Shown: positions 13,216 to 39,943 of the stretch, piece after piece | How positions within the stretch are numbered: the first letter of the stretch is position 1 | Layout: every line of letters begins with the position of its first letter | Source: Nonlabens xiamenensis | GTDB taxonomy: Bacteria; Bacteroidota; Bacteroidia; Flavobacteriales; Flavobacteriaceae | DNA: 64,000 nt | Assembly: GCF_003865345.1 (NCBI RefSeq) | Contig: NZ_RMVE01000001.1 | Span: forward strand, 620,001-684,000 | Reading direction: 5' to 3' | Program-made: the position numbers and the translations under genes | Notes under the pieces: generated by a model | Database searches by the model: none | What the model saw: only the letters and a program-made list of their open reading frames with translations | What the model was told of the DNA's origin: nothing

Positions 13216-13476
13216 AATTCATAATCTGACTTTTTGAGGCTTTTATACTATGAATTTTGCATAATAAGGCCTGTGTTTTGCCAAAAATTGACTCCAATTA
13301 TCCACTTTTTACGTTTTGTTAAAAAAAGATAATATACTGACAAACAAATATATAAATGATTCGTCTATGAATTAATGTCCACTTTTTCTGTCGACTGGGT
13401 TGATCAGGCTGTTTTAAGCGACTACTTTGCTACAACGTTTTCGCTATCATTAATTAATGTGAATATCAGTAAAACA

Positions 13477-16422
13477 ATGAACGACAATATCCGACCATAT
13501 TTTTCCCTGATCTGCCTTTTGACGGCATCTTACTTCAGTTTGGCTCAATCTGTTATCACAGGAAAAGTAACAGATGTAGACAATCAGCCTGTATTTGGGG
13601 CTTCGGTAATCTTACAAGGTACCACTTCAGGTACGACGACTGATTTAGAAGGTAATTACCGTCTCGAAGCCGATATTCAACCTGAATCTGTGCTGGTTTT
13701 CAGTTATCTTGGGTACGAGACTATCAATGTAACGATCGACGGTAGAACCGAAATCAATGTCAGCCTCGAGGAGAGTGCGGAGTCTTTAGAAAAAATTGTC
13801 CTGGTCGGCTATGGGTCGCAATTAAAAAAGGATATCACAGGATCTGTAGCTACAGTTGATGGTGATTCGTTTGAATCAAGACCAAATACGCAAGTAGGTG
13901 CGTTGATTCAGGGACAGGCAGCCGGAGTCCAAGTATTATCCAGCTCAGGGAAACCCTCTCAGGGTTTTAGTATACGTATCAGGGGTACCAATTCCATCAA
14001 TGCAGGAAGCGAACCTTTATATGTAGTAGATGGGGTCCCTACAACAGATACACGTTCCATCAATCCATCTGATGTCGATACCATTACTATCTTAAAAGAC
14101 GCCTCCTCTACTGCTATATATGGAGCGCAAGGCGCTAATGGTGTTGTTTTGATTACCACTAAGCGCGGTACCACCGCAAAACCAAAAGTGAGCTTGGACA
14201 TGTATGCAGGAGTATCTCAAGTATGGAACACATTAGAAGTACTCAATGGAGAACAGTACAGAGACTTGATGGAAGAACTGGGCTTGACTACAGATTGGGA
14301 TAGTTTTGACGCTCGTACAGACTGGCAGGATGAAATATTTCAAAATGGTTTTTCCCAGAACTATCAAGTTTCAGTTTCTGGCCGATCCGGATCCACCAAT
14401 TATTTTGTGTCGGCGGGTTATGTAGCACAAGAAGGGGCAGTACGTAGTGCTGAACTAGAACGTACCAACTTCAAGATCAATCTGGATCAAAAGATCGATG
14501 ATTGGTTGAGGGTAGGAACCAGAATAAGCTATACCGACTACAGTGATGTTGACATCAATGATAATAACAATGTCAATCAGGGAGGCGTTTTATTAGGAGC
14601 CCTAACTACACCATCCATCATTGGTGTTTTTAATGAGGATGGCATGTTTACCAGTAACCCTTTTCAAAATTGGGAAAATCCGCTGGCCAGTACAGATGGA
14701 TTGGATCGCCAATTTAACAATAGACGCTTTTTGGGGAACCTCTATGCCGAGGCAGAATTCTTAGAATATTTTACCTATAAAATCAATTACGGAATTGATC
14801 ATAGTAATGGCGTATTTGATTCCTTCTTGGATCCATTCCGGACTGGTTTCGGCGTGGCCATTGGGGGGCAATCCATCAACAATACCAACAAGAACTCATA
14901 TTACATTTTTGAAAATACGCTCAAATTTAATCGCCAGTTAGGCAAACACAAGATTGAAGCTTTGGTAGGAAGCGTGAACCAAAAGTTCAGATTTGAAAAT
15001 AGTTCCATTCAAACCAGAAATTTTGCCAGCGCAGCAGTAACTACACCTAACGGAGGTTCCGAATTATTTGCCGCTACCGCCTCAAAATCCGAAAAGGCCA
15101 ACGCATCATTCATCAGCAGGCTCAATTATGACTATGATGATAAGTATTTAGTAACGGCCAACTTCAGAGCTGATGGATCCAGTGCTTTTGGCCCTAACAC
15201 ACGCTGGGGGTATTTCCCATCTTTTTCGTTGGGGTGGCGAATTTCCAATGAAGGCTTTTTTGCAGAAGATTCTTTCATTGATGACCTCAAACTTCGCGTA
15301 GGTTGGGGTGTTGTGGGGAATGATCAAATTGCCAACTACGCGTATTTAGGACGTATAGGTACGGGCGCTAATTATCCCTTTGGTGGGTCTGTGCAACCAG
15401 GAACATTCCCTGCTTCGCTTGAAAACCTGGATTTGAAATGGGAAGAATCAGAGCAAACCAACTTAGGTGTAGACCTGAGTTTACTGGACAATAAGATCAG
15501 ATTCACTGCAGATGCCTATATCAAAAATACCAGGGATCTATTGCTGAATGCTCCTTTACCTACGTCAACTGGATTTAGCAGTGCCATCCAAAATATTGGA
15601 GAATTACAGAATAAAGGTTTGGAATTTGCTTTAAATACGACTAACATATCTACTGAGCAATTTTCATGGACTACAGGTTTCAATATTTCGTTCAATAGAA
15701 ATGAGGTGATCAATCTGGTAGGACAGGAATTACTACAGGGTGGTATTGCTGGTGGTCGTGGTGAGGCGAGTCTTGTTAGGGAAGGCGCCGCGCTGGGGAG
15801 TTTGTTCGGTTATGTTTATGGTGGAGTTGATCCCAGGACGGGAAATGCTTTTTATATAGATAACGATGGTAATTCAACCTTTACCCCTTCTGCAGATGAC
15901 CGCAGAATTATAGGTGATGCTAATCCAGATTTTTATTATGGGTTCACCAATACGCTTAATTATAAAGGATTTGGCCTGTTCGTATTTATTCAAGGATCGC
16001 AAGGAAATGATATGTTGAATGCTACTCGCATCGAAACGGAAGGTATGTTGGATCCTAAAAATCAATCTACTGCGGTACTGAACCGATGGCGTCAGCCTGG
16101 GGATATTACTGATATTCCAAGAGCCAGTTTTGGAAACAGCGACAATTCCAGGGTCTCTACCAGGTTTATTGAAGACGCCTCCTATCTGCGCTTTAAAACC
16201 ATCACCCTCAGCTATAACCTTGGGGAAAACTTATTGAACACGCTTCATTTGTCGGCTATGAAAATTTATGCGACAGGTGAAAACATTTTTACCATCACCG
16301 ATTATTCTGGATTTGACCCAGAGGTAAACGCATTTGGCGGTAGTAATACCATACGAGGAATTGATTTTGGTACGTATCCGCAGACGCGAAATTTAATTTT
16401 TGGTATTAATGCTACTTTTTAA
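13477..16422 (+). CDS. susC: SusC/RagA-family TonB-dependent outer-membrane transporter
   Basis: About 981 aa. The start is the ATG at 13477 (MNDNIRPYFSLICLLTASYF...LAQ), which gives a signal peptide; the open frame upstream to 13375 does not. A carboxypeptidase-like domain (about 28-100, ITGKVTDVDNQPVFGASVIL) is followed by a complete SusC plug (about 104-232: VLVGYGSQLKK, GVQVLSSSG, IRIRGTNSINAG, PLYVVDGVP, ANGVVLITTKRG). A long beta barrel ends RNLIFGINATF with the expected terminal Phe. It imports oligosaccharides with SusD as lid and is first gene of the structural operon. Confidence 0.96.
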   Translation: MNDNIRPYFSLICLLTASYFSLAQSVITGKVTDVDNQPVFGASVILQGTTSGTTTDLEGNYRLEADIQPESVLVFSYLGYETINVTIDGRTEINVSLEESAESLEKIVLVGYGSQLKKDITGSVATVDGDSFESRPNTQVGALIQGQAAGVQVLSSSGKPSQGFSIRIRGTNSINAGSEPLYVVDGVPTTDTRSINPSDVDTITILKDASSTAIYGAQGANGVVLITTKRGTTAKPKVSLDMYAGVSQVWNTLEVLNGEQYRDLMEELGLTTDWDSFDARTDWQDEIFQNGFSQNYQVSVSGRSGSTNYFVSAGYVAQEGAVRSAELERTNFKINLDQKIDDWLRVGTRISYTDYSDVDINDNNNVNQGGVLLGALTTPSIIGVFNEDGMFTSNPFQNWENPLASTDGLDRQFNNRRFLGNLYAEAEFLEYFTYKINYGIDHSNGVFDSFLDPFRTGFGVAIGGQSINNTNKNSYYIFENTLKFNRQLGKHKIEALVGSVNQKFRFENSSIQTRNFASAAVTTPNGGSELFAATASKSEKANASFISRLNYDYDDKYLVTANFRADGSSAFGPNTRWGYFPSFSLGWRISNEGFFAEDSFIDDLKLRVGWGVVGNDQIANYAYLGRIGTGANYPFGGSVQPGTFPASLENLDLKWEESEQTNLGVDLSLLDNKIRFTADAYIKNTRDLLLNAPLPTSTGFSSAIQNIGELQNKGLEFALNTTNISTEQFSWTTGFNISFNRNEVINLVGQELLQGGIAGGRGEASLVREGAALGSLFGYVYGGVDPRTGNAFYIDNDGNSTFTPSADDRRIIGDANPDFYYGFTNTLNYKGFGLFVFIQGSQGNDMLNATRIETEGMLDPKNQSTAVLNRWRQPGDITDIPRASFGNSDNSRVSTRFIEDASYLRFKTITLSYNLGENLLNTLHLSAMKIYATGENIFTITDYSGFDPEVNAFGGSNTIRGIDFGTYPQTRNLIFGINATF

Positions 16423-16434
16423 ATAACAAAAGCA

Positions 16435-17910
16435 ATGAAAACTATTAAAATATTTCTGAGCATTTTCATTTTGACAGCTTTGATCTCTTGCGAGGATTAT
16501 TTGGATCTTCAGCCGATTTCAGAGGAAACAAGTGGGAATGCATATGATACAGCAAGTCAGCTAGAGGCTGCCCTGGTAGGTGCCTACGAATCCTTTCAAT
16601 CTTCTGAATATTATGTGTGGGATAATATTCTATTCCAAGATGTACGTTCAGACAATTGTTATGCCGGTGGAGATAATCCTGAAATCTTTCAGATTGACTA
16701 TTTGGACATCGGACCCACGCATTCCAGATTATTTACCCATTGGTCTAATATTTACAACGCCATTGCCAAAGCTAATCTAGTATTGGACCGAGCAGACGGA
16801 ATAACCGATCAACAACTTACTGAAGATCGACGAGCACAGATCAAAGGAGAAGCTTACTTTTTAAGGGCTTATCATTATTTTACACTCGTGAAGCTCTGGG
16901 GTGGTGTTCCATTGATATTAGAGTCTACCACTTCGGCCGATCCAGAAAATGTAAACATCCCTAGGTCTACGGTTGAGGAGGTTTATGATCAAATCTATGC
17001 GGATCTACTCATGGCCATCAGCATGTTGCCGGATACCTATGGAAATGATGCCAGCGTAAATAAAGCCAGAGCTACTTCAGGAGCTGCCAATGCGTTAGCA
17101 GCCAAAATTCTAGCGCAACAACCTGTTCCAGATTATACCAATGTCTTGGCGCACATCGAGGCTGTTGAAGCCAGTTCAGCCAATTACACCCTAATTAACT
17201 ACCCTGAACTATTCGATGGAAATAACTACAATAATGCAGAATCCATTATTGAGGTACAATATCTGGGAGGGAATGAAGGGAACTACGGGCCGCAATTATT
17301 GCTGCCACCTTCCATCAGCGGCGATACCTGGAGAAAATTTGTGACGCCTTCTGTGGATCTGGTGACCGCCTTTGATGATGAAGGAGATACGGTAAGAAAG
17401 AATGCCTCCATCCTTTTTGAACAAGTACAATGGGTGGATGAATTTTGGGGTAATGCCCAGGGAAGTTCGATCCCCTTCAGTTATAAATGGAAAAATGCCA
17501 ATGGATTTGCTAGTGCTGACCGACAGTATTTGTTAAGATATGGTGACATGGTTCTGCTCAAGGCAGAAGCCTACAATGAGTTGGACCGACTGCCAGAAGC
17601 TATCACCGAAGTCAATCGAATCAGAAACAGGGCTAGTTTACCTGACTTGCGCCCTGACCAAAGCAGCTCAAAAGAAGTAATGAGGATGTCCATACTAAAG
17701 GAAAGACGCCTCGAATTATTTCAGGAGGGTCAGCGCTGGGATGATTTGGCCAGGTACGATGTACTAGTATCTACCATGAACGAGTTGGTAGAAATTGATT
17801 TGCGTACTGGCAGCCCGGTCAATTACAATATGACTGCCGCCAAAAAACTACTGCCTTTGCCTCAACAAGAATTGGATAGAAATCCTGCTTTAGAACAAAA
17901 CCCTTTATAA
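16435..17910 (+). CDS. susD: SusD/RagB-family substrate-binding lipoprotein
   Basis: 491-aa lipoprotein (lipobox ISC in LTALISCEDYLDL) with the SusD start CEDYLDLQPISEETSGNAY and TPR-like helices typical of the family. The C-terminal SusD domain includes YLLRYGDMVLLKAEAYNEL and ILKERRLELFQEGQRWDDLARY. It forms the lid of the SusC barrel and binds glycan at the surface. It starts 12 nt after susC, and the SusE/F-like gene follows after 7 nt. Confidence 0.96.
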   Translation: MKTIKIFLSIFILTALISCEDYLDLQPISEETSGNAYDTASQLEAALVGAYESFQSSEYYVWDNILFQDVRSDNCYAGGDNPEIFQIDYLDIGPTHSRLFTHWSNIYNAIAKANLVLDRADGITDQQLTEDRRAQIKGEAYFLRAYHYFTLVKLWGGVPLILESTTSADPENVNIPRSTVEEVYDQIYADLLMAISMLPDTYGNDASVNKARATSGAANALAAKILAQQPVPDYTNVLAHIEAVEASSANYTLINYPELFDGNNYNNAESIIEVQYLGGNEGNYGPQLLLPPSISGDTWRKFVTPSVDLVTAFDDEGDTVRKNASILFEQVQWVDEFWGNAQGSSIPFSYKWKNANGFASADRQYLLRYGDMVLLKAEAYNELDRLPEAITEVNRIRNRASLPDLRPDQSSSKEVMRMSILKERRLELFQEGQRWDDLARYDVLVSTMNELVEIDLRTGSPVNYNMTAAKKLLPLPQQELDRNPALEQNPL

Positions 17911-32491: not shown

Positions 32492-35400
32492 TTATTCAGC
32501 GAGGATTTTGATTTTTACTCCCTGTTGCCAATTTTTGAATTCGTCGGTATAATAGAGATAGACTGAACTCGCTGGCGCATTAAAAGTTCCAGGGATTTCT
32601 GTCTTGAGATCTAGGAATATGGTTTTTTTGTCATTTGGCCCCATCTCCCTCCAATACAAAACCAAAAACTGATCAAAAATTTCATAGTAATCTACCTGTT
32701 TTTTATCCAAGAGTTCCTTTAGTTGCCATAATTGCAACGAGCTACCTGAAGGAATACCAATTTTTGCGGTGGTCATGGGTACTGGTGTATCAAGCTTATT
32801 TTCCACCTCTACCATGATCCTAAAGGTTTCACCTACTACTGCAGTGGGATTTTGAATATTGGTTTTTAGTTGTACATCACAGTTTTCGGCAGACTGAGGT
32901 AGCTCGGTGTTCCAAAAGGCTTGAACGGTAAAAGGAAATTGAGCGTTGGAGTCAGCAAAAGTGATAGAAAGATCCTGCACGCCAGTTGACATATATTTTT
33001 CCAGTCCCGGGAGCATCACTTTGCCATTGATGGCCGAGCTTAAGTCAACAAATATTTTTTTGTCATTTATAAATAAGTAGGATTCCGTTAGGTTTTCCGA
33101 TACTAATTGTTTTCGCTTTTTGGTGTATTCAATAAGAGCTTTTAAAGCCATAGAGGTAGATTGGGTATTTCCAAATTTTCCGTTACGTCGTTGTGAGACA
33201 ATATATTCGATTCCTTTTGCTTCAATAACTGGATTTTCTGCATCTCTTGATAATGCCATCACGGTGAAAGCGGCAGTTTCTACAGCCATCGCATTTCCAT
33301 TTGATCTTGTAATAGTAGCAGTTACGGGTAATTCTCCGAATCCATATTGATCAATGTTATCTTTGATTAATTTCATGAGAAACTTGCGATCTTCCTGCAA
33401 ATTCATCTTCATACTGAATAGCGCTAACATTGCCAATCTATAGGAATCATTTTGGGCTATGGCCAAAGATTTGGCGACTTGGTATTCACGCATAACTTCT
33501 TTACCAAAGCCGGATTCTCCCAAGACATAGGTGATATAAGCATTATTCACTTCTTGAGGTGCTGCTGAGAAACCATATTTTCCATGATTCTGTTTGAAAC
33601 CTCCTCGACCGTCTCTTCTATTCAGTAAAAATTCTTTAGTACGCTTTAGCATTTGTTGATCGACTCCGTTATATACTTCCTGCATTTCCATGAATTCCAT
33701 CAAACCATAAGCACTTAATGCCTCGTGGGGAGGGGTGTCTCCATACCATTCAAATCCGTTTTGCGAAGTCTCGTAGGCGGCAAGTTTTTTATATCCTTTC
33801 TTAATATAGGCTAATGCTTGTGCCTCTACTTTAGGATAGGAAGTTTCAGTTTCCCTAAGATATTTTAAAACCAGTATATTAGGATAGGTGGTAGATGAAA
33901 CCTGTTCAAAACAACCATGGGGCTCCCTAAGTATAGACGCTATGCCGTCCATCGTCTCTCCAATGATGTTGGTATAAACGATAAGTTCTGCCTTTAAGGT
34001 TCCTGGTATTGGCTGTCCAACATCAAATTTCTTTACTCCACTTTTAAGTCCGCTCCAGGAGTTTTGGGCAGGGAAATAAGGAGTTAATACCTGAATGGGT
34101 CGCTCTGTTCTGTCTTGCAGGTCTCCAGCTTCTAGGGAAACCTTTATTTTTCCTGTTGTGGTTTTTGCGGTTGGAGTGACCGTAATCTCACGATAGTTAT
34201 AGCTATTACTAGGTATGTTTGCAGTCCAATGCGTGTCATTTTGTTCCAGTAGCTTGATTTGGTTGGGGAGGTCAATTTGAACTTTCGCTTCTAAGGATTT
34301 ATTTGTAGTATTTAAGATTCTAATGGGCAGCTGCAAGGTGTCGTTTAGGGTAAGATAAGAAGGTAGTTTCAAGTCTAGTCCCAACGGTTTATTGGTGGCA
34401 AACAAGGTGGTATCCCTTCCCACTAATCCATTAACTCCTATACCTTCAGTCGTGATGGCAAAAGAAGTCAATTCGTCTGAGGTGTAGAAATCAAAATCTG
34501 ATCTCCCGTTGATATCAGTCTGGATTACTGGGTTCCAGTATAATGTCTTTCTAAAATCGGTACGTTTTTCAGATAACTCTGTATTTTGATATACAGGCAT
34601 GTAAAACGCTTTTGGGGAGTAAAGTTGCTGGTTGTCGATTGTATGAAAAAGAGCGGTTGAGTAATTATTGAATTTTTTTTGTTTAAATAAGACTTTTCCT
34701 TCACCCGTCAATGGATCTAACTTTTTTGTATTTACGATGATCACCCCATTGGTTCCACCCTCGCCAAACATAGCGCTGGCTGAGGCACCTTTGATCACCG
34801 TTAAGCTATATATGTCTTCAAAATCAAGGAGGTGCGTCCTAGAGATTAAACCGGCATCGGCATTGATGGGAAATCCATCTACTACCAATAAAGGAGCGGT
34901 ATTTGATTTGATGGAGGATATTCCTCTCAATGAGATCATTGCCTTTGCATTAGGAGTATTTTCGGCAGCAGTGATTTGTACTCCAGGAATAAGACCTTGT
35001 AGCGCTTGAAGATAATTGTTATAAAGTTCGTTTTTAATCGTATAATTTGCTATGGTCGTGACTCTAACCATACTGGAGCTACTTGTACTATATCCAACCA
35101 CAACTACCTGATCAAGAGATGAGCTCAAGGATAAATTTGCATTGCTTACTACCTCGCCGGTTAGGGGTGGATCAGTGGGTTCAAGATTGGGTAATTCATA
35201 CACGTTTGGTGTTTCATCAATAGCAAGAGCGCCAATTTCTTCTTTAGTAAGTTGGGAAAAGGTTTTATAATCTCCTTTGGTAATTCTAAGCGGCTGGGCG
35301 TCTTTTGTATAGGCCATAAGCAGCAGTCGAGAATTTTTAGTGACCTGAAAAGAAAAATATCCTGATTCATCAGTCTGTAAATCAAGTACCTTATTGATGA

Positions 35401-37057
35401 GGGGATCAAAAAGTAAAAGTTGCGCTTTCACCGGTTTACCTGTAATGTCAGTCACCCTTCCGTACTGCACGTTCAAACGCTCTGGAATAGTAGGGTTGTT
35501 GAGGTTTTTATGATTCAAATACGTACGCCAGCCATGAGTGAGCATGACTAAATCCAAATACTCAAATGCTTTCTCTTCTTCTGGGTTAAAATAGAATTGA
35601 GGATTATGAACTTTTCCGCTTAGTTCAGACGATACAAGTAGTTGGGATAGTATGTGATCATCCTCATTTTCGACAAAAGTCAACAAATTATTGTCTGTGA
35701 TAGCAAGAGAAAGATTAGAAGGGACGGGAAAGCCATTCTGGTCCAAAGTTTTGATTTCTACGTGCACTTTTTCCCTTGTTTTAAAAAAACTTTTTTCCAA
35801 GTCAATTTGAATGTCCAACTGATTGCTGGGGTTAAGGAATAAGAGGCGTTCTGCGACCTTTACGTCACTCTTATTGATCAATGTAGTTTTAACGATTCCA
35901 GATTCCTGGATTTGTTTAGGCAATTGAAATGTCGCCTTATTCTCTTCTATCGGTAGTGTAGTGGTAAGCAGTTTAGAATTTGCGTTTTCCACAATCATGA
36001 GCAAGGTATCCTCATTGTTTGAAAAAACCTGAAATTCAATGAATTTTCCTTTTTCCTGACAGGTAAAACTGGTACCGAATTGTGCTGTCTCAGGAAGTGG
36101 AATCAGACTGTCGGATACTACAGGTTGAATGAGTCGGGCAAAGTATTTATTAGTTCTAGGTGTCCAATTGAACCAGCCCATTCCATCGTGCGCACTCTCA
36201 AAATTAACTACTTTCGTTCCGTTTTGGTCTAGAATCTCTCCAGCTACATCAACGGGCTTACCGAATTCGTTGATGGCTTTGAATGCCATCTTCCCTGGAT
36301 TGTTCTGTATGGCGGTACCACTTTCTGGCATGAATTGAAGATCAATTTTATTCAGGGTAACCGGAATACTTTTTGAAATGGATTCCCTGCTACCTTGATA
36401 GGGAATCTGTATGTTCAAAATGGCGTCGGTGGTATTTAAATTCGGGGGGAGTTCAAAATTGATTATTGTATCACCATTACTGTCGGATAGGCTTTCATCC
36501 TGCTGGATGATCCTTCCAGCTATTTTGATCTGGTATTCAACTTTTTGATTCGGCAAGCTTCTGTTTTGAAGGTCTCGAAGTGCTAATGTGGCTTGAACGT
36601 CGCTACCTGGCCCGTAGGCGGTTTTTTCAAAGTCCAGGGTCATCAGTAATCTTGGTTGAACAATTTTTTGAATGATGATTTCCTTTTCAAAATAATCATT
36701 GACATTGGATATCATCATATTGGTATATGTTCTCAGTTTATAAATTCCACCGGGCCACTCTTTTTGGATATGGAAATCTCCTATTGAATAGCCCTGATTA
36801 ATACTTAATTTTATTTGTTTGGCTATGTTGCCTTCAGGAGATATGAGTTGAGCATGTAGGATCTCGCTCAAACGGGTAGGTTGGTTTTTTCCATCTGTGA
36901 TATAAGTCTTGAACCATATTGTCTCTTCAGGCATGTAAAGTGGTCGATCCGTTTGGGTATATATCTTTTCCAGTTGTTTTTGATTTTCAAGGGATTGACC
37001 GCTCAAAAGAATGGAAAACATGAGTAGAATCAAGAGCGTATTTTTCTTAAGAGACAT
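32492..37057 (-). CDS. Alpha-2-macroglobulin-family protein carrying a SusC-type TonB plug domain
   Basis: 1521 aa with a signal peptide (1-20). MG2-type start (about 31-135: EKIYTQTDRPLYMPEETIWF), further MG domains to about 520, then a carboxypeptidase-like domain (about 528-600, GRVTDITGKPVKAQLLL). A complete plug follows at 648-779 (QVVVVGYSTSS, LQGLIPGVQI, ISLRGISSIKSN, PLLVVDGFP, ASASAMFGEGGTNGVIIVNTK). Next comes the A2M region (WNPVIQTDINGRSDFDFY), the thioester motif PHGCFEQ with C1049 and Q1052, and an alpha/alpha toroid. The 3-nt gap to the barrel gene upstream implies one operon. A2M proteins trap proteases; coupling to a barrel is an inference. By eye its base composition is AT-rich in places. 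Confidence 0.88.
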   Translation of the reverse strand: MSLKKNTLLILLMFSILLSGQSLENQKQLEKIYTQTDRPLYMPEETIWFKTYITDGKNQPTRLSEILHAQLISPEGNIAKQIKLSINQGYSIGDFHIQKEWPGGIYKLRTYTNMMISNVNDYFEKEIIIQKIVQPRLLMTLDFEKTAYGPGSDVQATLALRDLQNRSLPNQKVEYQIKIAGRIIQQDESLSDSNGDTIINFELPPNLNTTDAILNIQIPYQGSRESISKSIPVTLNKIDLQFMPESGTAIQNNPGKMAFKAINEFGKPVDVAGEILDQNGTKVVNFESAHDGMGWFNWTPRTNKYFARLIQPVVSDSLIPLPETAQFGTSFTCQEKGKFIEFQVFSNNEDTLLMIVENANSKLLTTTLPIEENKATFQLPKQIQESGIVKTTLINKSDVKVAERLLFLNPSNQLDIQIDLEKSFFKTREKVHVEIKTLDQNGFPVPSNLSLAITDNNLLTFVENEDDHILSQLLVSSELSGKVHNPQFYFNPEEEKAFEYLDLVMLTHGWRTYLNHKNLNNPTIPERLNVQYGRVTDITGKPVKAQLLLFDPLINKVLDLQTDESGYFSFQVTKNSRLLLMAYTKDAQPLRITKGDYKTFSQLTKEEIGALAIDETPNVYELPNLEPTDPPLTGEVVSNANLSLSSSLDQVVVVGYSTSSSSMVRVTTIANYTIKNELYNNYLQALQGLIPGVQITAAENTPNAKAMISLRGISSIKSNTAPLLVVDGFPINADAGLISRTHLLDFEDIYSLTVIKGASASAMFGEGGTNGVIIVNTKKLDPLTGEGKVLFKQKKFNNYSTALFHTIDNQQLYSPKAFYMPVYQNTELSEKRTDFRKTLYWNPVIQTDINGRSDFDFYTSDELTSFAITTEGIGVNGLVGRDTTLFATNKPLGLDLKLPSYLTLNDTLQLPIRILNTTNKSLEAKVQIDLPNQIKLLEQNDTHWTANIPSNSYNYREITVTPTAKTTTGKIKVSLEAGDLQDRTERPIQVLTPYFPAQNSWSGLKSGVKKFDVGQPIPGTLKAELIVYTNIIGETMDGIASILREPHGCFEQVSSTTYPNILVLKYLRETETSYPKVEAQALAYIKKGYKKLAAYETSQNGFEWYGDTPPHEALSAYGLMEFMEMQEVYNGVDQQMLKRTKEFLLNRRDGRGGFKQNHGKYGFSAAPQEVNNAYITYVLGESGFGKEVMREYQVAKSLAIAQNDSYRLAMLALFSMKMNLQEDRKFLMKLIKDNIDQYGFGELPVTATITRSNGNAMAVETAAFTVMALSRDAENPVIEAKGIEYIVSQRRNGKFGNTQSTSMALKALIEYTKKRKQLVSENLTESYLFINDKKIFVDLSSAINGKVMLPGLEKYMSTGVQDLSITFADSNAQFPFTVQAFWNTELPQSAENCDVQLKTNIQNPTAVVGETFRIMVEVENKLDTPVPMTTAKIGIPSGSSLQLWQLKELLDKKQVDYYEIFDQFLVLYWREMGPNDKKTIFLDLKTEIPGTFNAPASSVYLYYTDEFKNWQQGVKIKILAE
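34721..35116 (-). other. Plug domain region inside the A2M gene
   Basis: Codes for residues 648-779 of the A2M protein, about 132 residues, equal in length to the plug of the SusC at 13477-16422 and with each of its landmark strands. Confidence 0.85.
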
Positions 37058-37060
37058 AGG

Positions 37061-39943
37061 TCAGAGTTTTATTTGAATCTGGCCACCTATCTCCCGTACG
37101 ATTGGCGTATTGAAAAAATCGAGCCCTCTGCCATTGGTAAAACCAAAAAGGCTAGAATTAGGAGATATACCTTTTGAACTGGTGTAAGACATTAAATTAT
37201 TAGCGTAAAAACCTACTTTGAGATTCTGAAAAATTTTATTGATCCCAAAGTCAAATTTATAAGAAAGTCCTATCGACCTTAACAAGAGGTAGCTGGCGTC
37301 AGTGATGGCATCTTCATCCACGCCGTCGTATCCATACCTTACCCATCTGTTGCTTGTGATTGGTTGACTGGGGTCAGAAAAATCTACTGGCGTTGTATTG
37401 ACATTTCCTTGTGTATCCACTCCAGGATAAACAAATCCGCTGACCTCTCGCAACCTGGAAGATTCTTCAGAGCGACCCAAATAGTTCAACAAATTTTGCG
37501 TTCCATTCCAGACATCACCTCCATGCTGATAATCGAGTACAAAATCAAAGGTCCAGCCTTTAAATTTGAGTGTATTAGCAAAGGCCAATTTAAAATCAGG
37601 TGTGGTATTTCCAATAATTTGATTTTCTGGATCCACCAGTGGGAATCCATCTTGTCCAATTAACAACTGACCGTCTTCGGTCCTCTGATAAGCCGAGCCA
37701 ACAATGCTTCCTGTCAGTTGGCTGGGAATCATGCGGATTGAAACGTTGTTAAATCCAGCGATGGGTAAACTGTTTAGACCTTGCCTTAGTTTTTTCACAC
37801 GAGCTCGATTGACAGAAAAATTCAATTTGGTAGTGAGTTTCAGACCCTCCCCATAATAACCACCGACATCCAGGGAAGCCGATACCTCAAATCCCTTATT
37901 GTGAATATCCACCGTATTTCTCAAAACAAATGAACCTGAATCAAGCACCGGAAATATCCCATCCTTCATGTGGGAACTAAAATAAGTACCATTCAATCGT
38001 AGCCGATGATTAAACAAAATCAATTGGAGACCGATTTCAAAATTGGTTGATTTTTCCAATGCCAAGCTTGAGTTATTGAAAAGATCGGCATTGGTCAAAA
38101 GACTTTGAGATTGTTCTGGGGCCAAGGTCAGGGAATTATGGCTGCGATTTGAATAGAACAGTGGCATCTCAGAGGCTTCTTCTGCGTATTCAGCTGAAAT
38201 TATTAGATCGTTTAAAAATGAATCGTAGGAGGTAAGTTCATTAAAGTCAAGCTGAAACCCGACACCTGGCATCCAGAGGTCATTGCCCTGTAATCCTGAA
38301 ATGATGGCGTTATGATGTAAATAAAAATTTGCATCTATACTTCCTCTGCTCTCTAATTTGGCGCTGTTTGAAAGCCTGTATACACCATTGGTAGAATTTT
38401 GAATGTTCAAGGAAGTATTAGCTGGATTGGTAAAATTCGTACCCTGAAATTGAAAAGATTCTGTAAGCGAATAATCTAAACTGCGCCGAACATAATCTGC
38501 CTTAACCGCAAAATCTATATCGGTTTCATAAGATAATTCTATGCGTTCAGAGAAATCTGCCCCAAAGAGAAAGGCTTGGTCTTGAATGGACTTTTGTGCC
38601 AGATATCCATTTGTAAAACCTACACTACCGTTAGGGAGACCATAGTTTGTCGATATTTCATCCAATTGATATTGAGCTCGTAGCTCAAGTTCCGTTGTAG
38701 ACTTAAAGTCAAATTTATAAGACGTACCCATGGAATAGCCGTCATTTTGTTGATTATTCCGGCTACGAGCCAAAGTCCACAAGGGATTGTTGAATTCATC
38801 GGGACTAAAACTGCGTTGGAGACCTGCGTTGACAGAAATACCTTGATTGTTCTGAAAAGAGATAGGTGTGACAAAATTCTGCAGGAATAGATTGTTTTGA
38901 AATCCATTTAAATTTTTCTGGTTCAACTGATCTGTAGAATGGCTAAAGAATAATTTCAACCTTCTTTTCCAATGGTAATCCGTATGAAAAACCGTTTGGC
39001 GGCTATCATTTTGACCATAGAAATTTTCTTGTTGAGCATGTTTCAACCTAAATTTTATAGCATGGTCCTTACGAGCTAGCGCCAGTTGGTAATCATTTTT
39101 GTAGATCAGTCCGTGCTCGAACAATTCGTTGGTATAAGGTAAAGGTGTTGTTCCTGATCCAGGTATCAGTCGCCCATTAGTATCATATAAATAGTTGGAT
39201 CCATCAAAAACAAGACTTCTTTGATCTGGACCATATGAAAAGATTTCTCCTGTTTCAGGACCTCGCCAAATATATTGACCATTTTGTGGCCGTCCTTGTA
39301 CATATTTGTGTTGCAGCTCAGGTAACTTTGACCGATCTATGGACCTGGTTCCGATTGAGCCGATATATTCAATATTGAAATAAATTTTTGGGCCATGCTT
39401 CACTAAGATAAGTGTATCCTTATCTCCAATCCATTGCAATGATTTAATGTTGCTTAAATCTGTGTGTCCGTCTTTCATTTTGAACGGTTTTCCATGAAAA
39501 TCCAACTGAAGATTAAGAGGAGGCTGTAGGCTATCTAGTGCTTTCTGATAATCAGATGATTTGATTTGTTGTACAGGTATACTTATGCTCTCTTCGTCCC
39601 CAAGAGAAACGCTCAGCATTTCTTGGGTCACCCTGACTTCCCTGGTTTCCATTCCGACATAGCTATATATTAGAGTGTCGCCAACCCTACATTTGATGCT
39701 GTAATTGCCATCAAAATCAGTGGTTGTTACCCTGTTGGTACCTTTGACTAAAATTGTTGCTCTAAACAATGGTGTATCACTGTCACTGAGCTGTCCGGAA
39801 ACGATAGTTTCTTGCGCCATTAATTGTTGGCCAAGAGTGAATAAAATAAGGATAAGGAATTGGCGTGTTTTCAAAATACTTGGTTGGTGGATATCAAAGA
39901 TAAGTTTTTGTGTGGTGTCAAACAGGGTCAATGAGTGAATCAC
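37061..39943 (-). CDS. SusC-like outer-membrane barrel with a reduced plug
   Basis: 960 aa from the ATG at 39943; a TTG at 39874 would give a cleaner signal peptide (KTRQFLILILFTLGQQLMAQ). A carboxypeptidase-like domain (about 45-120) is followed not by a normal plug but by a stub at 141-184. In the stub LQLDFHGKPF, NIKSLQWIGD and DTLILVKHG look like the last strands of a plug, while the N-terminal plug half (VVGYG, GV, IRG) is missing. The usual post-plug segment follows (KLPELQHKYVQGRPQNG, 206-222), then about 690 residues of beta barrel ending VREIGGQIQIKL. It is first gene of the operon with the plug-bearing A2M protein. Confidence 0.85.
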   Translation of the reverse strand: MIHSLTLFDTTQKLIFDIHQPSILKTRQFLILILFTLGQQLMAQETIVSGQLSDSDTPLFRATILVKGTNRVTTTDFDGNYSIKCRVGDTLIYSYVGMETREVRVTQEMLSVSLGDEESISIPVQQIKSSDYQKALDSLQPPLNLQLDFHGKPFKMKDGHTDLSNIKSLQWIGDKDTLILVKHGPKIYFNIEYIGSIGTRSIDRSKLPELQHKYVQGRPQNGQYIWRGPETGEIFSYGPDQRSLVFDGSNYLYDTNGRLIPGSGTTPLPYTNELFEHGLIYKNDYQLALARKDHAIKFRLKHAQQENFYGQNDSRQTVFHTDYHWKRRLKLFFSHSTDQLNQKNLNGFQNNLFLQNFVTPISFQNNQGISVNAGLQRSFSPDEFNNPLWTLARSRNNQQNDGYSMGTSYKFDFKSTTELELRAQYQLDEISTNYGLPNGSVGFTNGYLAQKSIQDQAFLFGADFSERIELSYETDIDFAVKADYVRRSLDYSLTESFQFQGTNFTNPANTSLNIQNSTNGVYRLSNSAKLESRGSIDANFYLHHNAIISGLQGNDLWMPGVGFQLDFNELTSYDSFLNDLIISAEYAEEASEMPLFYSNRSHNSLTLAPEQSQSLLTNADLFNNSSLALEKSTNFEIGLQLILFNHRLRLNGTYFSSHMKDGIFPVLDSGSFVLRNTVDIHNKGFEVSASLDVGGYYGEGLKLTTKLNFSVNRARVKKLRQGLNSLPIAGFNNVSIRMIPSQLTGSIVGSAYQRTEDGQLLIGQDGFPLVDPENQIIGNTTPDFKLAFANTLKFKGWTFDFVLDYQHGGDVWNGTQNLLNYLGRSEESSRLREVSGFVYPGVDTQGNVNTTPVDFSDPSQPITSNRWVRYGYDGVDEDAITDASYLLLRSIGLSYKFDFGINKIFQNLKVGFYANNLMSYTSSKGISPNSSLFGFTNGRGLDFFNTPIVREIGGQIQIKL
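39392..39523 (-). other. Plug stub region of the barrel gene
   Basis: Codes for residues 141-184 of the barrel protein. It aligns by eye with only the C-terminal part of a normal SusC plug (compare PLYVVDGVP ... VVLITTKRG in the PUL SusC). Confidence 0.6.

Follow-up and report, generated by a model that had tools for sequence, protein, structure and literature searches.

According to the excerpts of PMC6434023, all TonB-dependent transporters (TBDTs) contain a barrel and a plug by definition. The SusC/RagA transporters (NCBIfam TIGR04056) are among the known systems closest to the locus described here. They share with it a 22-strand barrel and the same type of plug, and the CarboxypepD_reg domain is also found in the barrel protein of our window, i.e. 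the whole stretch of 64,000 nucleotides of Nonlabens xiamenensis DNA that was analysed. In contrast to SusC/RagA, the plug is here located on a separate protein, an alpha-2-macroglobulin (A2M), and there is no SusD among the six window neighbours scanned. Another TonB-dependent barrel, Oar of Myxococcus xanthus, is similar in being tied to a protease, but it carries the plug in the same chain and exports the protease, and the excerpts of PMC6434023 mention no A2M.

Bacterial A2Ms fall close to the second protein of the locus. The type I protein of E. coli, ECAM, which is PBP1c-linked, has the same macroglobulin (MG) domains, CxEQ thioester motif and thioester domain (TED), and the type I gene is often juxtaposed to that of PBP1c (excerpts of PMC3328433). 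In the same excerpts, ECAM is a protein of 1653 aa with a lipobox, whereas the A2Ms that we found paired with a barrel are about 1500 aa long; a hydrophobic signal-like N-terminus is present in 91/93 of them and a lipobox pattern in 3/93. They also differ from type I A2Ms by a plug before MG7 and by their barrel partner. MagD, a type II A2M of Pseudomonas aeruginosa, is likewise a periplasmic A2M held by operon partner proteins, but has no thioester, and the abstract of PMC5764988 names neither a plug nor a barrel partner for it.

Bacteroidota also encode MG2-plug proteins of 800–900 aa, with an MG2-type start and a plug region before MG7, as in our A2M. They differ in that they end after MG7 without a TED match, in their often partial plug and in the absence of an adjoining plug-less barrel. 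In the 19 loci of this kind that we read (L073-L091), most of the proteins had the MG7 end, some stood in tandem, and no match to a plug-less barrel was found. A barrel closed by another polypeptide is known from SprA of the type 9 secretion system, which has a separate Plug protein. Compared with the barrel/A2M pair, SprA is a larger channel, is not TonB-dependent and has no A2M.

Among the matches listed from open-licence PMC papers (a collection with few subscription papers and no preprints), we found no description of an A2M tied to a plug or to a SusC barrel. The sole listed paper in which macroglobulin, plug domain and TonB occur together concerns ZnuD. The preliminary description of the locus knew of no system built this way, and none turned up among these matches. 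A split gate made of a SusC barrel and a complement-like A2M therefore appears to be new as an architecture, while each half has a known fold. By definition, plug and barrel of a TonB-dependent gate fold together in a single chain; here, the plug has apparently moved to a different, very large protein, and the split is kept across several orders of one phylum.

A barrel gene and a plug-bearing A2M gene

The two genes are located on the minus strand in the order barrel, A2M (Table 1). The gap between them is 3 nt, and the ORF positions thus agree with what had been stated for the pair before. The six scanned neighbours encode a PBP, GldH, PSP1/RicT, an RseP-type M50 protein, SCO1 and a DUF3078 protein, and no SusD partner was found among these six. 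A PBP1c gene adjoining the A2M gene was not found in the window either; the PBP, encoded three genes downstream, gets its highest score from the PBP1A model, a score that stays under the cut-off of that model. Neither the barrel nor the A2M matched the PADLOC defence library. A third gene common to all loci was not found: among the 14 largest clusters of neighbours within 4.5 kb that were listed, the largest covers 15/93 loci. In one of the other loci, an ECF sigma factor adjoins the pair on the opposite strand (L041:13094-13588). As an internal control, we used an ordinary plug-containing SusC located elsewhere in the window next to a SusD-family protein, which follows it (13375-17910).

Table 1. 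Features of the barrel/A2M locus (positions in the window, residues of the respective protein)
Feature	Position	Strand	Residues	Basis or remark
Gene 1: plug-less SusC-type 22-strand outer-membrane barrel	37061..39943	-	960 aa	GTG start uncertain
CarboxypepD_reg domain of barrel protein	39620..39802	-	48-108	Pfam CarbopepD_reg_2, 5e-12
Linker of barrel protein	39386..39619	-	109-186	predicted model, mostly low confidence
22-strand barrel	37064..39385	-	187-960	predicted model; structural alignment from about protein residue 186
Gene 2: A2M with plug	32492..37057	-	1521 aa	
Signal-like hydrophobic N-terminus of A2M	36998..37057	-	1-20	no lipobox pattern
MG2 domain	36731..36970	-	30-109	Pfam
A2M linker	35108..35242	-	606-650	low model confidence, block means 25-63
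TonB-box-like DQVVVVGY	35090..35113	-	649-656	pattern
SusC-type plug	34721..35128	-	644-779	plug profile 7e-32; Pfam Plug; TIGR04056
MG7 (Pfam A2M)	34280..34549	-	837-926	Pfam
TED	33128..33982	-	1026-1310	Pfam
Thioester motif GCFEQ	33902..33916	-	1048-1052	motif
Receptor-binding-like domain (A2M_recep)	32537..32779	-	1427-1507	below curated cut-off

The preliminary description had credited the barrel protein with a plug stub of about 44 residues. This was not borne out, as the region proved to be the CarboxypepD_reg domain. It is followed by about 78 mostly low-confidence residues, which occupy the place of the TonB box and plug in an ordinary SusC, and then by the barrel, with no plug match. 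Pfam Plug did not match the barrel protein at E up to 1, and TIGR04056 matched it in three stretches, the best of them at residues 609-960.

An AlphaFold2 model of the barrel (60 aligned barrels, mean pLDDT 89.6) contains 22 long strands, counted by hand. This is the number typical for TonB-dependent barrels. From residues 144-149 to its end, the model aligns with solved SusC-family chains (Z 20-27, 636-709 residues), and the closest solved relatives are SusC importers, including the peptide transporter RagA. The alignment starts at about model residue 145, which is protein residue 186, and the aligned part of the solved chains begins at residues 170-262, approximately where their plug ends. 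In 5fq6, for example, the A2M-matched plug region extends to residue 168 and the barrel alignment begins at 170. The protein thus has the 22-strand beta barrel of a TonB-dependent transporter and no plug in the same chain.

The absence of a plug could be tested in 92/93 barrels (>700 aa), the remaining one (L159) being a 210-aa barrel fragment. A plug profile built from 29 SusC proteins found nothing below E 3.9 in these 92 sequences; there were three weak matches (E 3.9, 4.7 and 10). A complete divergent plug within the barrel, the finding that the preliminary description had named as speaking against its proposal, was detected neither by model nor by profile, and a hidden plug of this kind was rejected on the barrel model, the SusC structure alignment and the profile search. 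In the organism's own genome, the family model is covered from end to end by 11 SusC proteins. A search of that genome covering SusC-family barrels (E up to 1e-5) returned the window barrel as the sole match to the barrel end of the SusC model without the plug part. Since the pair also recurs in 93 loci, window included, the split is not a chance feature of the window.

The CarboxypepD_reg domain cannot be a general closure of the barrel, because 40/93 barrels show no match to that of the window (Pfam finds none in 9/9 of those tested). An 8-letter TonB-box pattern found no hit in the 93 barrels, but the same pattern also misses many A2Ms. With a looser pattern, 13/92 plug-less barrels match, that of the window not being among them, and 11 of these 13 matches lie inside the CarboxypepD_reg match. 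Mean conservation was not higher for lumen-facing than for outward barrel positions (0.346 vs 0.358), whereas positions conserved at 0.8 or more are lumen-facing in 11 cases and outward in 4.

The second protein has the MG2, MG7 and TED domains of the A2M superfamily as well as the CxEQ thioester motif, which reads GCFEQ in 93/93 paired A2Ms. A2M_recep (MG8) reached 19.4 bits vs a cut-off of 21.7. Pfam Plug matches residues 661-771 (4e-14). The plug part of TIGR04056 (positions 75-235 of 981) aligns with residues 644-810 at 1e-35, and residues 747-777 show a match to the SusC_RagA signature below its cut-off. The full plug claimed before for residues 648-779 is therefore present as a complete SusC-type plug, although the profile gives its span as about 644-779.

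A model of A2M residues 25-960 (mean pLDDT 79.6) matches the structures of C5, C3, CD109, human A2M and E. coli A2M. Its residues 1-492 align with C3 chains (631-642 residues long) to residue 605-606, and past the C3-aligned part the sequence continues with the plug and then MG7. We take the interval in which the plug sits to be that of the anaphylatoxin domain in C3 and of the bait region in A2M, and going by the model, the plug appears to be inserted there. The linker in front of the plug is a possible bait-like segment. In the plug region, the confidence of the model is low (block means 25-71). The isolated FepA plug behaved as unfolded (excerpts of PMC11658791). The low confidence would be in keeping with a plug that needs its barrel in order to fold, but a failed prediction looks the same.

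Pairing and shared history of plug and barrel

We compared 98 loci: the window, 3 relatives and 1 outlier from a phylum sample, 80 from a species-level collection and 13 from the window's order. From 473 confirmed database loci, the 80 most similar to a query in which 4/5 rows carry a plug were taken, and they therefore lean towards plug-bearing A2Ms. A plug was found in 97/98 A2Ms, 96 times at E below 1e-15 and more weakly in L162. A plug-less barrel on the same strand lies beside the A2M in 93/98 loci, upstream of it in 92 and downstream in one (L150). Most upstream barrels (89/92) are at a distance of 50 nt or less or overlap the A2M gene; the others are 165 nt (L167), 286 nt (L116) and 1199 nt (L163) away. 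Overlaps, such as the one of 269 nt in L125, arise from choosing the first start codon. In the other five loci, no barrel was found. In three of them (L124, L133, L137), the A2M frame starts at or near a contig end; L168 and L072 are discussed below.

The loci are distributed over families of Flavobacteriales, Cytophagales, Chitinophagales, Sphingobacteriales and Bacteroidales (orders presumed from the family names). One pair comes from a MAG named Limnohabitans (Pseudomonadota; L165). Its A2M groups with Flavobacterium, and the contig is thus probably mis-binned. When searched with the part after the plug (E below 1e-40), the A2M clade was present in 5/395 Bacteroidota genomes, four with plug and barrel and one (G133) with neither. 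In the window's order it was present in 17/296 genomes, all 17 with plug and barrel; these comprise the window's own genome, the 3 relatives from the phylum sample and 13 new ones. The reverse search used a profile of 60 barrels against 296 Bacteroidota genomes and scored the two best candidates per genome. It yielded 4 clade barrels, all beside plug-bearing A2Ms, with 964 bits or more and matches from position 1-5, while the next-best candidate, part of a longer frame, reached 614 bits with a match beginning at position 136.

The preliminary description had proposed to see whether barrels of this type sit beside plug-bearing A2M genes, and this was the case in 93/98 loci and 4/4 times in reverse. 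It had also held that independent occurrence of the two would count against its proposal. We did not find them apart, the one doubtful case being L168, whose A2M has no upstream barrel and whose downstream side is cut off. On the genomic side, its idea that the A2M may supply the plug in trans is well supported by the pairing at 93 loci, which by itself would not show physical contact. Judged by their sequences, the two proteins divide one SusC over two chains, and they form a real, conserved two-protein system of Bacteroidota.

The A2M of L072 (L072:8174-12880, genome G133) belongs to the clade, but has neither plug nor barrel. Between the MG part and MG7, it contains two CarboxypepD_reg domains and no plug, whereas the other A2Ms have a CarboxypepD_reg-like part and the plug in this stretch. 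No barrel was found in the 20 kb read around this gene, and G133 had no match to the barrel profile at 1e-40. In an unrooted A2M tree of the part after the plug (38 pairs plus L072 and L168), L072 is placed next to L168 (support 94) and both beside L131 (97), inside the paired A2Ms. Because of this position, plug and barrel were most likely lost together in the L072 lineage, as far as an unrooted tree can suggest. L168 has a plug-bearing A2M, no barrel in the 2.7 kb upstream and a contig end on the downstream side; it may be a half-way case towards loss. Among 98 genomes of its order, G133 was the only one with a plug-less A2M of the clade.

Trees of plug and barrel were calculated for 43/93 pairs (two separate alignments comprised the window and 59 of the 92 other pairs). 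The 43 plug-less barrels form one clade (support 100) against 18 SusC barrels. In the plug tree, which is poorly resolved (139 columns, 47/81 inner branches open), the 43 A2M plugs are in one set (99) with 8 SusC plugs and 0/12 plugs of MG2 proteins. Seven of these 8 SusC plugs are from the window's own genome, 6 of them fetched for a plug matching the window A2M, and the set leaves out 21/29 SusC plugs, most of which belong to the nearest barrels; 12/29 SusC plugs filled under half of the columns because their loci were cut. The conserved columns are in line with the grouping. In 26 columns, one residue is found in 80% or more of SusC plugs; 50% or more of the A2M plugs retain that residue in 24/26 of these columns, vs 17/26 in MG2 plugs. 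From the 23 MG2 ORFs with any plug match, 12 plugs entered the tree and 14 the column test, weak ones being excluded. A TonB-box-like pattern was present in 84/97 A2Ms, 1/14 MG2 plugs and 9/16 SusC plugs, with a rough pattern that misses 13/97 A2Ms and 7/16 SusC plugs and also matches 13/92 barrels. The A2M plug is of SusC type. The view that it is an ordinary MG2-protein plug was rejected, since both the plug tree, poorly resolved and biased as it is, and the conserved columns are against it.

Plug and barrel distances also vary together. In partial Mantel tests on 91/93 pairs, plug and barrel distances correlated with MG and TED removed (r 0.19, 0/500 permutations as high), vs r -0.06 for plug and MG distances with barrel and TED removed. 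Residue coupling between plug and barrel showed no excess over controls in the same 91/93 pairs, which are few for this purpose. Pairing and shared history show that plug and barrel belong together, but do not indicate the mode of contact.

A putative split gate and other explanations

The presence of a plug is in itself no proof, since plugs are found in many Bacteroidota proteins that have no plug-less barrel as neighbour. Taking the pairing into account, we propose that the products of the two genes form a single TonB-dependent gate in two parts, with the A2M serving as a cork in trans on the periplasmic side of the barrel; we put the probability of this reading at roughly 0.65. The barrel would sit in the outer membrane without a plug of its own. 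Something must close it, since a large hole is to be expected from a 22-strand SusC barrel that has no plug. The A2M would be exported to the periplasm, where its plug domain would fill the barrel lumen from the periplasmic side, and we regard physical insertion of the plug into the lumen as likely. In TonB-dependent proteins, both plug ends face the periplasm, so that the A2M, with its macroglobulin domains and TED, would hang beneath the pore. Its periplasmic topology is what we infer from the plug flanks of the family. By pulling on the TonB box just before the plug, TonB would open the pore; this kind of opening is plausible because a TonB-box-like strand came along with the plug. The A2M would then be ready to capture an incoming molecule, probably a protease or a peptide, by its thioester. 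Protease trapping was reported for both bacterial A2M types (excerpts of PMC3328433, abstract of PMC5764988). Here, the possible link to protease or peptide capture is based on the thioester motif and the fold family, and a protease as cargo is a guess. We can also only guess that cleavage of the linker in front of the plug, at the bait/anaphylatoxin position, fires the thioester and dislodges the plug.

The plug of the A2M could also be one more Bacteroidota plug module that works outside any barrel, the neighbouring barrel being closed by its own loops or N-terminal domain. Such modules exist, as MG2 plug proteins of 800-900 aa are common and none of their 19 loci matches a plug-less barrel, and the lack of residue coupling would fit as well. 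However, the pair stays together in 93 loci and in 4/4 cases of the reverse search, the A2M plugs retain more of the SusC columns and far more often the TonB-box pattern than the MG2 plugs do, and closure by the N-terminal domain fails as a general solution in the 40/93 barrels without CarboxypepD_reg match. The joint absence of plug and barrel in L072 also speaks against this reading, and we consider a module independent of the barrel improbable. Alternatively, the pair may take up proteins or peptides as a nutrient importer similar to RagAB, with the A2M as periplasmic receiver. The nearest solved relatives of the barrel, SusC importers with RagA among them, are compatible with this, but a single-use thioester would be a costly nutrient receiver, the GCFEQ motif in 93/93 A2Ms would fit defence or capture better, and the six window neighbours include no SusD. 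Nutrient import thus seems unlikely.

The barrel might instead be the export channel of the A2M, which would be carried through it or displayed on the surface and act outside the cell, with the plug as an address tag as in two-partner secretion. This would explain one dedicated barrel per A2M, with the barrel gene first in 92/93 pairs. In Myxococcus, the TonB-dependent Oar is needed for secretion of the PopC protease, and its TonB box matters (excerpts of PMC6434023). On the other hand, the TonB-box-like strand before the A2M plug points to the usual seating with both flanks in the periplasm. Moreover, no folded A2M of about 1500 residues is known to us to leave the cell through a 22-strand barrel, and we regard this explanation as quite unlikely.

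The gate corked in trans by the A2M can be extended to a complement-like outer-membrane tripwire, an idea that we offer tentatively and consider doubtful. The plug would replace the bait/anaphylatoxin element of the A2M, and gate and trap would be a single switch: one linker cut or one TonB pull would move the plug and fire the thioester at the contents of the channel. The barrel would perhaps be a general socket for plugs in trans, and plug-bearing partners may be exchanged, as a second plug protein beside the barrel of one family (f2, see below) might indicate.

With the split arrangement, nature provides a system for studying the entry of a plug into a barrel that is already complete, its possible exit in one piece and the opening of the pore by TonB. 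For bacterial thioester proteins, the arrangement would mean a defined place to dock at the outer membrane, and hence a testable function. It also suggests that the many "orphan" plug domains of Bacteroidota may be functional components of other barrels.

Several other plug-bearing proteins were noticed on the way. In family f2 of the window's order (L040, L216-L227), probably Weeksellaceae, the gene immediately upstream of that for the barrel encodes a protein with a SusC-type plug in 8/13 loci. In L040, a vWA domain and a type 9 sorting tail accompany the plug in this protein, and an ECF sigma gene lies before its gene. Judging from this arrangement, the upstream plug could also serve the barrel, which may accept more than one plug. 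Together, the ECF sigma genes of L041 and f2 hint at sigma-factor control in some lineages. The window's own genome contains a 714-aa frame (G000:C7:406496-407092) that matches the CarboxypepD_reg and plug parts of SusC (model positions 1-207), not the barrel. Finally, a 156-aa protein encoded just upstream of the barrel in another locus (L039:8623-9093) contains two repeats resembling C-terminal plug halves.
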